From Anaerolineaceae bacterium (lineage in GTDB: Bacteria; Chloroflexota; Anaerolineae; Anaerolineales; Anaerolineaceae), in contig JAAZOQ010000305.1 in assembly GCA_012797695.1 (NCBI GenBank), positions 1 to 43,475 of the forward strand: a DNA stretch of 43,475 nt. Reading direction: 5' to 3'. The notes beneath the pieces are model-generated. The model saw only the letters and a list, made by a program, of their open reading frames with translations, had not been told where the DNA came from and did not search any database. Below, one piece after another: positions 3,631 to 6,944 of the stretch (positions are counted from its first letter, which is position 1; the number at the start of each line of letters is the position of its first letter). A program made the position numbers and the translations under genes.

Positions 3631-4608
3631 ATGATCACCATCCAGAACGCTATTGACCAGTATCTTGAATCTGTCCGATTGGCACGCAGCGCGCGCACCG
3701 CGGTGACCTACGCCAATGCCATGCACTATTTTATTGAAACACTGCAGCGTCATGGCCTGGATACCGAGAAGGATGATCTTTCTCGACTCAATGAGGATGC
3801 CATTACCTGGTTGGCGCAGGACCTCAAGTCTTTGGCTGCCACAACGGAACGGCTGTATCTGACGGCCGCCACAGGCTTCTATTCTTTTCTGGCTGCCGAT
3901 AATCTGGCCAATGTGAACCTGCCCCGAATCAAGATGCTCATCCAGCAGCGTGCCAGACGGCCTGGACAGCGCTTACCGCAGTTCCCGGTCAAAGCCATTG
4001 AAAAAGTTCTGCTATGCGCAACTGATCTCTCCAAGAAGCCCTATGAAACGAGCGAAGAGCGGCTGATCAATCTGCGGGATCGGGCTTTTTTGCTGACGCT
4101 GGCGGATACCGGGCTGCGCGTGCACGAGGCCTGTGCCCTGCGGCGCGGCGATCTGGACTGGAATGAAGGGAAAGCCATGATTATCGGCAAAGGCAATCGG
4201 CAGGACATTGTGCGCTTTTCAACGCGGGCCACAGATGCCTTATCTGATTACCTGAACGCTCGCCGCGAGATCGATGGCTCTTCGAACCGGGCGCTCTCTT
4301 CTTTACCGCTCTTCGCACGTCACGACCGCGGTGCTGGCAGCAAGATTAAACCCATGACCACGACCACAGGCCGCAATATTGTGACCAGCCGCGTAGAAGA
4401 GTTTCTAGGCAAAGAAGCCGTGGGCACGATCACTCCACACTCATTTCGGCATTATTTCGTCACTCGCGTGTTGCGCTCTTCCGGGAATCTCAAACTGGCT
4501 CAGGAGCTGGCACGGCATAAGAATATTGCAGTGACCCAACGCTATGCTCACCTCACCGATGACGAACTGGATAAAGGCTACTGGGAAGCCATTGAAGAAA
4601 AGAAATAA
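3631..4608 (+). CDS. Tyrosine recombinase/integrase, XerC/XerD-like
   Basis: The 325-residue site-specific recombinase has an N-terminal SAM-like core-binding domain (about 1-105) and a C-terminal catalytic domain (about 115-320). All catalytic residues are visible: Arg163 in D-T-G-L-R-V-H-E-A, Lys187 in the I-G-K-G-N hairpin, His270 and Arg273 in H-S-F-R-H, His296 in A-R-H-K, and the nucleophile Tyr305 in T-Q-R-Y-A-H. Length and motif spacing fit XerC/XerD/XerH-type chromosome-dimer recombinases better than phage integrases. It is a lone plus-strand gene between minus-strand operons, with its own promoter and terminator. No phage genes or attachment duplication with a tRNA are nearby. Whether it resolves chromosome dimers or moves a lost element cannot be told from this window. 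Confidence 0.9.
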   Translation: MITIQNAIDQYLESVRLARSARTAVTYANAMHYFIETLQRHGLDTEKDDLSRLNEDAITWLAQDLKSLAATTERLYLTAATGFYSFLAADNLANVNLPRIKMLIQQRARRPGQRLPQFPVKAIEKVLLCATDLSKKPYETSEERLINLRDRAFLLTLADTGLRVHEACALRRGDLDWNEGKAMIIGKGNRQDIVRFSTRATDALSDYLNARREIDGSSNRALSSLPLFARHDRGAGSKIKPMTTTTGRNIVTSRVEEFLGKEAVGTITPHSFRHYFVTRVLRSSGNLKLAQELARHKNIAVTQRYAHLTDDELDKGYWEAIEEKK

Positions 4609-4613
4609 AAAAA

Positions 4614-4640
4614 ATCCGCTCCGAGTTTCTCGGAGCGGAT
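4614..4640 (-). terminator. Intrinsic terminator between recombinase and csp (convergent genes)
   Basis: A perfect 12-bp stem (ATCCGCTCCGAG and its complement) surrounds a three-base loop. On the minus strand it is followed by a run of eight T, giving a strong terminator for csp. On the plus strand only a short T stretch follows, so it may stop the recombinase transcript less efficiently. Confidence 0.9.
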
Positions 4641-4663
4641 CCAGTTTATGCAATATTGTTTAA

Positions 4664-4876
4664 TTACTTGACAACAACAACATTACTTGCCTGGAGGCCT
4701 TTCGGGCCTTTTTCGATAGAAAACTCGACTTTTTGGCCTTCTTCAAGGTTGCGATAACCCTCGCCCTGGATAGCGGAGAAGTGCACGAAGACATCCTCGC
4801 CGCCTTCGCGGGAAATGAAGCCATAACCTTTGGTTCCGTTGAACCACTTGACCGTACCGACGATCCGTTCAGACAT
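4664..4876 (-). CDS. csp: Cold-shock domain protein (CspA/CspB family)
   Basis: The 70-residue single OB-fold nucleic-acid chaperone has RNP1 K-G-Y-G-F-I (16-21), RNP2 V-F-V-H-F (29-33), and the N-terminal G-T-V-K-W-F-N that defines the family. It binds single-stranded RNA and melts secondary structure, in cold or general stress. The ribosome binding site AGGAGG lies seven bases before the ATG. The gene has a 140-base leader with its own promoter and an internal terminator-like hairpin (described separately). It lies downstream of typA on the same strand. Both products affect cold growth and ribosome function in other bacteria, but the separate promoter suggests independent control. Confidence 0.97.
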
Positions 4877-4941
4877 TTATTTGCCTCCTATAGCAAAACG
4901 ACCAAATATTAGGATAGTGTTTTCGTTCTATCGGAGCGGTC

Positions 4942-4982
4942 AAAAAAAGACAGCCCTGGTGCTTTCACGCCTTGGGGTTGTC
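4942..4982 (-). terminator. Terminator-like hairpin inside the csp 5' leader (candidate attenuator)
   Basis: Read on the minus strand, positions 4982-4949 form a 34-base stem-loop. Its outer stem GACA/TGTC and CCC/GGG blocks and an inner GTG-AAAG-CAC hairpin are followed immediately by seven T at 4948-4942. It lies downstream of the likely csp promoter and about 65 bases before the csp start codon, so it would end transcripts prematurely unless an alternative fold or factor prevents it. It could also simply stop read-through from typA. Confidence 0.65.
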
Positions 4983-5016
4983 TTTTTACATCCAACAAGA
5001 ACTACTAAGCATCCTA

Positions 5017-5053
5017 CGCGAATAACTTTATCATAATTATTCGCGAAAGTCAA
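5017..5053 (-). promoter_or_regulatory. csp promoter with overlapping operator-like dyad
   Basis: On the minus strand TTGACT (5053-5048), a 17-base spacer and TAAAGT (5030-5025) preceded by an extended TG form a good sigma-A promoter. A perfect 9-bp inverted repeat, CGCGAATAA at 5017-5025 and TTATTCGCG at 5037-5045 with 11 bases between, covers the -10 box and most of the spacer. This is the position of a repressor operator. The predicted leader is about 140 bases. Confidence 0.7.
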
Positions 5054-5084: not shown

Positions 5085-6944
5085 TTAGTCTTCGGCCAAA
5101 ACTTCTTTGGCCTTCTTGGATTGCTTGCCGCGTTCTTCAGTATCCAGAATGCGCTTGCGAATGCGGTAATTGAGCGGTGTTACCTCGAGCAGCTCATCCT
5201 CGGCCAGATATTCGATGGCCTGATCCAGGCTCATTTCCAGTGGCGGGGTCAAGCGGATTTCGATATCCTTGTTCGAAGAACGCATGTTGGTCAGGTGCTT
5301 CTTCTTGCATACGTTGACGGTCACGTCATCCGGGCGCTGGGTTTCGCCGACCACCATACCTTCGTAGACATCCACCCCGGCGCCATAGAACAGGACGCCT
5401 CTCTCTTCGGCGTTCTTCAGCCCATAAGTAGAAGCCTGCCCGGTTTCCCAGGCGACGATGGAACTGGTGGCACGGGCCGAGATTGGGCCGGCCAGAGGCA
5501 GATAACCATGGAAAAGGGTGTTCAGAATACCCATGCCGCGGGTGGCGGTCAGAAACTGATAGCGGAAGCCCAACAGGCCGCGAGTTGGCACCAGATAGCT
5601 CAGGTGCACGGTGTTATCGGGATTGTTGGTCATATCCAGCATTTTGCCACGGCGATTGCCCAACATTTCGACCACAGTTCCAACGGTATCGGGACTGGTA
5701 TCGATGGAAAGGTCTTCAAACGGTTCCAGCACTTCCCCATTGGGACCAGATTTGAAAATGGCCTCGGGCCGGGAAACCTGAAATTCATAGCCTTCACGGC
5801 GCATGGTTTCGATCAAAATAGCCAGATGCAGCTCTCCCCTACCCGAAACCAGGAAGGTATCTGGACTGTCTGTTTCTTCTACACGCAATGCTACGTTATT
5901 TTTCAATTCATCAAAGAGGCGATCCCGCAATTTGCGCGAAGTACTCCATTTGCCCTCTTTGCCGGTGAAGGGCGACGTGTTGACGCCAAAGGTCATGCGC
6001 ACGGTAGGCTCTTCGACGGTGATGGTCGGCAGTGCTACCGGATGCTCGGCATCGGCCAGTGTTTCGCCAATGTTGATGGCTTCGAGGCCGGCAATGGCCA
6101 CGATGTCCCCTGCAGTGGCTGATTCCACCTCAACCTTATCCAGGCCCTGGTAGACGTACAAATAACGGGCGCGTTCGGGAACAATGGTGCCGTCTTTGAG
6201 GATGCGGGCCACTGGTGCACCGGCGACCATCTTACCGGCATGAATGCGGCCAACGGCAGTGACGCCGCGGTAATCATCGTAGCCCAGATTGGTAACCAGA
6301 AGCTGCAGGGGCGCATCTACATCCACGACCGGGGCCGGAACGTTTTCAAGGATGGCGTTGAAAAGAGGCTGCAAATTCGGTTCGAGTTGATAGGTCAGCC
6401 CGGCCTGCTGGGTAATGGCGTTGCAGTAAATAATGGGGAAATCACACTGCTCATCATTGGCGCCCAGTTCCACAAAGAGATCAAAGGTCAGGTTGACGGC
6501 GCGTTCGGGGTCAGCGTCTTTGCGGTCCATTTTGTTGATGACCACAATGGCCTTGTGACCCATTTCGAGCGCTTTCTTGAGCACAAAGCGGGTCTGCGGC
6601 ATAGGGCCTTCTGCGGCATCGACGAGCAGCAGTACACCATCGACCATGTTCATGACACGCTCTACCTCACCACCAAAATCGGCGTGCCCTGGGGTATCGA
6701 CAATATTAATTTTGACCATCTCCCCAGTTTTGGGATCGGGGATGGTAATGGCCGTATTTTTGGCCAGAATGGTAATACCACGCTCGCGCTCCAGGTCATT
6801 GGAGTCCATGACGCGCTCCTGCACCTGCTGATTTTCACGAAATACGCGGGCCTGTTTGAGTAAACCGTCTACCAGTGTCGTCTTGCCATGATCAACGTGA
6901 GCGATAATGGCAACGTTGCGAATATCATTGCGAACTTTTTCCAT
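5085..6944 (-). CDS. typA: TypA/BipA ribosome-associated translational GTPase
   Basis: This 619-residue translation-factor GTPase related to EF-G has the G1 motif A-H-V-D-H-G-K-T (15-22), the R-G-I-T-I switch I sequence, G3 D-T-P-G (83-86) and G4 N-K-M-D (137-140). The EF-G-like domains and the BipA-specific C-terminal domain (the [10 protein letters not shown] region) follow, and the length is normal for the family. BipA/TypA binds 70S ribosomes and assists assembly and translation under cold and other stress. It is monocistronic or loosely linked to csp downstream. The ribosome binding site is weak (GGAT about ten bases from ATG). A lysine-rich C-terminus is typical. Confidence 0.97.

Follow-up and report, generated by a model that had tools for sequence, protein, structure and literature searches.

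Most of what is understood about cold-shock induction comes from E. coli, in which the cspA leader affects both translation and the stability of the mRNA. The corresponding Rfam family, the cspA thermoregulator RF01766 of enterobacterial cspA mRNA, shares with the locus described here a csp mRNA that is structured and has a long 5' leader. However, RF01766 is described as acting on translation, whereas the leader analysed here contains an intrinsic terminator. The cold-shock boxes in the 5' UTRs of B. subtilis cspB and cspC (PMC8307031) and the E. coli cold box are likewise conserved csp leader sequences, and in those systems the sequence affects expression. In the 5' UTR of B. subtilis cspC, selection yielded point mutations within or beside a cold-shock box, one of which was shown to raise cspC expression (PMC8307031). 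The B. subtilis boxes are not described as terminators (PMC8307031), and we saw no sequence relation between them and the present leader. Transcription attenuators of RNA-binding protein genes, such as the rplJL and trp leaders of B. subtilis (PMC4538822, PMC3913778), also combine a terminator with a competing upstream pairing. By contrast, in the leader described here the candidate antiterminator is short, the candidate effector (Csp) is only proposed, and a further partner for the 5' strand lies beyond the terminator.

Earlier work has shown that Csp proteins can shift termination either way. In E. coli, CspA, CspC and CspE weaken termination at metY-rpsO, as does CspD at several terminators (PMC9765468), whereas CspB and CspD of B. 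subtilis mostly strengthen intrinsic terminators (PMC8307031). In the open-licence papers that we searched, we found no description of the leader analysed here, and the text of a 104-motif survey holds no cold-shock motif.

A predicted intrinsic terminator lies between the csp promoter and start codon

The window, that is, the whole stretch of 43,475 nucleotides analysed, carries on its minus strand a csp gene (ATG at 4876-4874, stop at 4664) whose nearest NCBIfam model is CspE, at 109 bits and below the cutoff of 120 (Table 1). The gene upstream on the same strand (6944-5085, minus) is one that we take to be typA from reading its ORF sequence. The csp promoter is of the sigma-70 type, with a TG preceding the -10 element within the 17-nt spacer. 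Between this promoter (-10 ending at 5025) and the ATG (4876), the initial annotation had placed a stem-loop with seven T as an intrinsic terminator, and our analysis confirms the stem-loop and T run: positions 4982-4949 of the minus strand read GACAACCCCAAGGCGTGAAAGCACCAGGGCTGTC (34 nt) and are followed by TTTTTTT at 4948-4942. The stem, GACA-A-CCC/GGG-C-TGTC, contains one A.C mismatch, and an A run at 4987-4983 is able to lengthen it into the U run. The locus has the GC-rich stem and directly adjoining U tract of an intrinsic (Rho-independent) terminator and, between the promoter and start codon of csp, the placement expected of a transcription attenuator.

Table 1. Features of the csp locus and its leader in the window
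Feature	Position	Strand	Basis
csp, 70-aa CspA-family cold-shock protein	4664..4876	-	ORF and NCBIfam search
csp promoter: -35 TTGACT 5053-5048, 17-nt spacer, -10 TAAAGT 5030-5025	5025..5053	-	
Conserved csp leader RNA, predicted +1 ~5017	4910..5017	-	R1 covariance model match
P1 5' strand UAGGAU, partner AUCCUA 4915-4910	5011..5016	-	fold and covariation
P1 3' strand AUCCUA	4910..4915	-	fold and covariation
P2 5' strand GUUC, partner GAAC 4928-4925	4999..5002	-	covariation
P2 3' strand GAAC	4925..4928	-	covariation
P3 5' strand GUUGGA, partner 4935-4930; GUUG 4996-4993 alternatively with CAAC 4980-4977	4991..4996	-	
P3 3' strand UCCGAU	4930..4935	-	covariation
CAAC, base of terminator 5' arm, competitor partner of GUUG	4977..4980	-	family offset count
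Terminator stem-loop (T)	4949..4982	-	sequence, fold, covariation
U tract, 7 T	4942..4948	-	sequence; family T frequencies
Shine-Dalgarno (SD) hairpin UUUGC(UAUAGGAG)GCAAA; SD AGGAGG 4889-4884	4880..4897	-	sequence and fold
csp 3' terminator, strong, palindromic	4612..4642	-	terminator scan

Folding of the entire leader (5017-4874) gives -40.1 kcal/mol, compared with -30.3 kcal/mol in shuffles (z -2.7; 1/200 as good); the segment with just the hairpin (5017-4942) has an energy that is unremarkable beside shuffles (z -1.2). A simple terminator scan did not pick up the leader hairpin of the window, presumably because of the A.C mismatch. With an ordinary hairpin energy and a missed scan, the case for more than a chance hairpin is therefore a comparative one. 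At the other end of the gene, the palindromic terminator at 4612-4642 sits between csp and a convergent tyrosine recombinase gene (3631-4608) and probably serves both.

RF01766 passes its gathering threshold over 4611-5017 (minus; 97.1 versus 78 bits), with an alignment that rests on the csp coding sequence. Searched by itself at a threshold of E 10, the leader gave no RF01766 match, and we rejected its membership of this family on that ground. Annotation pipelines would thus label 4611-5017 as a cspA thermoregulator, a call for which the leader gives no support.

A conserved leader RNA precedes csp in Anaerolineales

For the comparison, csp genes were gathered from 60 relatives and the leaders of 31 loci were read. 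Leaders from several Anaerolineales families share GTAGGATGC..AGTTC..GTTGGA, followed by a sequence-variable hairpin with a T run; 3' of the hairpin, the shared leader continues with TCCGATGGAAC, CCTA and TTTGCC..AGGAGGCAAA, the ribosome-binding site. A covariance model of this leader (R1), used for genome searches, matches the window at 4907-5017 with 85.5 bits (E 1.6e-20) and describes a conserved RNA of ~110 nt that has the terminator as its core. R1 detected the leader in 161 of 301 Anaerolineales genomes at E<=0.1 (best E near 1e-27), several copies being present per genome in some. Genomes of family f12 of the order contain as many as four to six copies each, and in one of its members (G047) at least three csp genes each have their own copy (L101, L113, L134).

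Outside Anaerolineales, R1 was run on a sample of ~300 genomes from the class and another of ~300 from the phylum, and scored strongly in one further genome (G594). This genome, placed in another family of the class and with a contamination of 7%, has two strong leader copies (L142, L158) that may reflect transfer, misplacement or a contaminant. Pattern-matched records that R1 also confirmed were Chloroflexota, Anaerolineae or Anaerolineales; DNA-pattern matches in Firmicutes, Proteobacteria and others had no covariance model match and were rejected as chance, and the plasmids searched yielded no leader match.

The leader is tightly linked to csp, which lies directly downstream in 128/128 distinct full-length copies examined (127 copies plus L129, which the motif filter had missed and which is also upstream of csp). 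Hits not upstream of csp were weak or reverse-strand matches. Two partial covariance matches (L156, L172) were rejected because they cover only the middle of the model, and L157 was rejected as a weak match for which csp was not found.

The terminator is kept together with the leader. A strict rule for a stem plus U tract is satisfied by 103/127 related leaders, compared with a mean of 2.0 in block shuffles and with 2/27 csp leaders that lack the motif; among these 27 is the leader of the second csp of this genome, which has no terminator by the same rule. The frequency of T at positions 1-4 after the stem is 0.82, 0.92, 0.93 and 0.96 across the family, so that the U tract stays fixed while the sequence of the stem co-varies. 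In about 44% of the family the U tract is broken by a G at its fifth position (UUUUGUUUUGACC); the regularity of this interruption is odd, and it might be a Csp site. The second csp (L002) and its counterparts in the genus (L223-L234) have a different, shorter conserved leader without a terminator, in which TTGACA..TGGTAAATT is followed by a small GGCG.TGAGGG..CCC..CGC-type hairpin and then by GATGGAGAG.

The promoter is conserved, and the leader begins 7-8 nt past it. Among 127 related leaders, 115 have their best -10 ending 6-8 nt ahead of the motif, and hence the element begins at about +1. Promoter-like sites between the hairpin and the start codon are no commoner in related leaders than in shuffles, on which ground an internal csp promoter after the hairpin was rejected. 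With the promoter upstream of the terminator in nearly all copies and no excess of promoters downstream, full-length csp mRNA must therefore read through, as the initial annotation had proposed.

Compensatory changes support the terminator stem and two enclosing helices

The leader is predicted to form three helices, P1-P3, which enclose the terminator hairpin and whose 3' strands sit past the U tract. Among 97 distinct sequences, 83% of alignment cells in P1-P3 and the terminator are paired, compared with at most 44% when slid, and double-change cells number 179, compared with 62 in shuffles. The terminator stem accounts for both-side changes at 9/9 pairs with 92.5% of cells paired, and this co-varying stem is what the comparison of orthologous leaders for a conserved terminator, put forward with the first reading of the sequence, has brought out. 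P2/P3 has 92% of cells paired and both-side changes at several pairs, while P1 is the weakest helix (56% of cells paired, alignment A2). An unfitted MAFFT seed alignment gave a similar picture for P2, P3 and the terminator (85.8% paired versus at most 49% slid), and in this small alignment compensatory changes are present at 6/9 terminator pairs. When changes were placed on a csp coding-sequence tree, a stem partner that also changed always did so in the compensating direction; this test has too few independent events per single pair for significance. Thus, compensatory change at the sequence level backs the predicted P2/P3 pairing. We conclude that the csp leader is a previously uncatalogued leader-RNA family, of a kind already known, which looks like a transcription attenuator.

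The 5' strand can also pair with the terminator arm

When the transcript is folded to the terminator apex, the 5' strand can pair with the 5' arm of the terminator. The GUUG of the P3 5' strand finds a complementary CRRY at the base of this arm in 87/113 leaders, compared with 30.6 expected, and the complementarity peaks sharply at this offset; a 5-mer version of the pairing is present in 65/110 (20 expected). A longer helix reaching the loop has 82.7% of cells paired versus at most 57% slid, with one co-varying GC/AU pair (9-61), and in a class-swap every class of sequences pairs best with its own partner (rank 1/720 permutations), figures to be read with the fact that this structure was derived from the very sequences used to score it. 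Pair 9-61 has few independent co-change events, and pair 18-55 does not co-vary in the csp-tree test. In the window's genus the longer duplex is no better than shuffles, and it passes the 5% level in 21% of the family; we therefore rejected the extended antiterminator as a general feature and keep it as a clade-dependent candidate, with sequence support in some clades only. Of the competing antiterminator fold that the initial annotation had envisaged in orthologues, it is thus the short GUUG core that is kept.

By calculation, T beats the alternative fold by ~13 kcal/mol at 37 °C and by 18 kcal/mol at 15 °C, so that antitermination could only be kinetic or assisted by a partner. With the 5' strand present, the predicted appearance of T shifts from 5 to 7 of the ~10 nt of its 3' arm, a delay that is independent of temperature in the thermodynamic model.

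The Shine-Dalgarno sequence sits in a small conserved hairpin

Downstream of the enclosing helices, a U-rich linker leads to a short conserved hairpin, UUGCC..GGCAA, which carries the SD in its loop. The arrangement UUGCC..GGAGGCA is found in 88/125 leaders and the family's SD hairpin has a median of -5.7 kcal/mol, which makes control at the level of translation possible. A pairing of the P1 3' strand with the SD, plausible by eye in the window, was rejected because it is not kept in other clades. The leader also holds a short frame (AUG 5012 to UAA 4986, MLSSSCWM; MQSSSCWM in relatives) that ends just before T.

Discussion

Our data give an even chance to the reading that a transcription attenuator, set by read-through past the terminator, is built into the csp leader. 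RNA polymerase would start at ~5017 and copy the 5' halves of P1, P2 and P3 before reaching the intrinsic terminator. By default, much transcription would end at 4948-4942, freeing a leader RNA of ~75 nt; such termination at T we infer from the sequence. Read-through would produce csp mRNA, in which the 5' strand would pair past the U tract (P1-P3) and enclose the now harmless hairpin, with the SD in its small hairpin beyond P1-P3. By pairing for a short time with the base of the T 5' arm, the 5' GUUG would delay T and favour read-through. Free Csp, a single-strand binder, would release the GUUG pairing and so limit its own synthesis, and cold would titrate Csp and let polymerase through. Control of the leader by temperature or by Csp feedback is plausible. 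We favour negative feedback on these grounds: a protein that binds single strands would open the weak 5' pairing sooner than the strong terminator; CspB and CspD mostly favour termination in B. subtilis (PMC8307031); and, according to the title of Bae et al. 1999 (via PMC9947658), E. coli CspE negatively regulates cspA transcription. More speculative, and in our estimate somewhat unlikely, is a full three-way switch at the +1 of Anaerolineales csp mRNAs that would read Csp level or cold as termination, the 5' strand pairing either with the terminator 5' arm, giving read-through, or, once polymerase is past, with the downstream strand.

Several other readings have to be weighed against the attenuator. 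T might be a constitutive partial terminator that sets a constant read-through, with P1-P3 as a structural 5' cap protecting the mRNA. T is indeed strong and stable at all temperatures calculated, and P1-P3 are well conserved and can form only after read-through. Yet a promoter would be a simpler means of fixing output, and a constant terminator with a cap gives no role to the conserved complementarity between GUUG and the base of T or to the conserved 5' strand between P1 and P2; we regard it as unlikely, though less so than the readings that follow. The initial annotation had raised a positive loop as possible, in which Csp or cold weakens T and more Csp leads to more read-through. The E. 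coli precedents (CspA, CspC and CspE at metY-rpsO, CspD at several terminators; PMC9765468) and a U tract that is a likely Csp site speak for such a loop, but T remains strongly favoured in the cold by calculation and the B. subtilis proteins mostly act the other way (PMC8307031), which renders it distinctly unlikely.

A translation-level thermosensor like that of E. coli cspA (PMC9947658), in which the leader would switch access to the SD and T would be nothing more than a stable hairpin, would fit the conserved SD hairpin with its median of -5.7 kcal/mol and the long-range P1-P3 pairing. It leaves the fixed U tract with its varying stem unexplained, however, and the leader is without similarity to RF01766; we hold it to be very improbable. 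The hairpin could also be the terminator of typA. In this genome typA ends at 5085, the gap of ~31 nt up to the csp -35 contains no other terminator, and T would also halt typA read-through. But the element recurs at loci with a different upstream gene or one that points away, and its position with respect to the csp promoter hardly ever changes. In 22/47 copies with enough upstream sequence, the longest upstream frame (a frame-length heuristic, not gene calls) is on the opposite strand, and the hairpin therefore cannot be a general upstream terminator; we rejected this as its main role and consider it scarcely tenable. Practically negligible is leader-peptide attenuation by a ribosome on MLSSSCWM (AUG 5012 to UAA 4986) setting the fold, rejected because the uORF, although mostly ending just before T in the window's genus, is not conserved: its AUG is found in 59/127 leaders, only 31 of which stop before T. 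This AUG also comes ~6 nt after the 5' end and lacks an SD.

The analysis also corrects the RF01766 assignment that present pipelines would make. The leader is a compact system in which the action of Csp proteins on terminators, an open question, can be tested. A conserved terminator heading csp mRNAs across a bacterial order points to control at transcription termination, and Anaerolineales probably tune their cold-shock protein through whether transcription passes the leader terminator. The three-way switch, if true, would constitute an order-wide cold-shock regulator that works by attenuation rather than translation.
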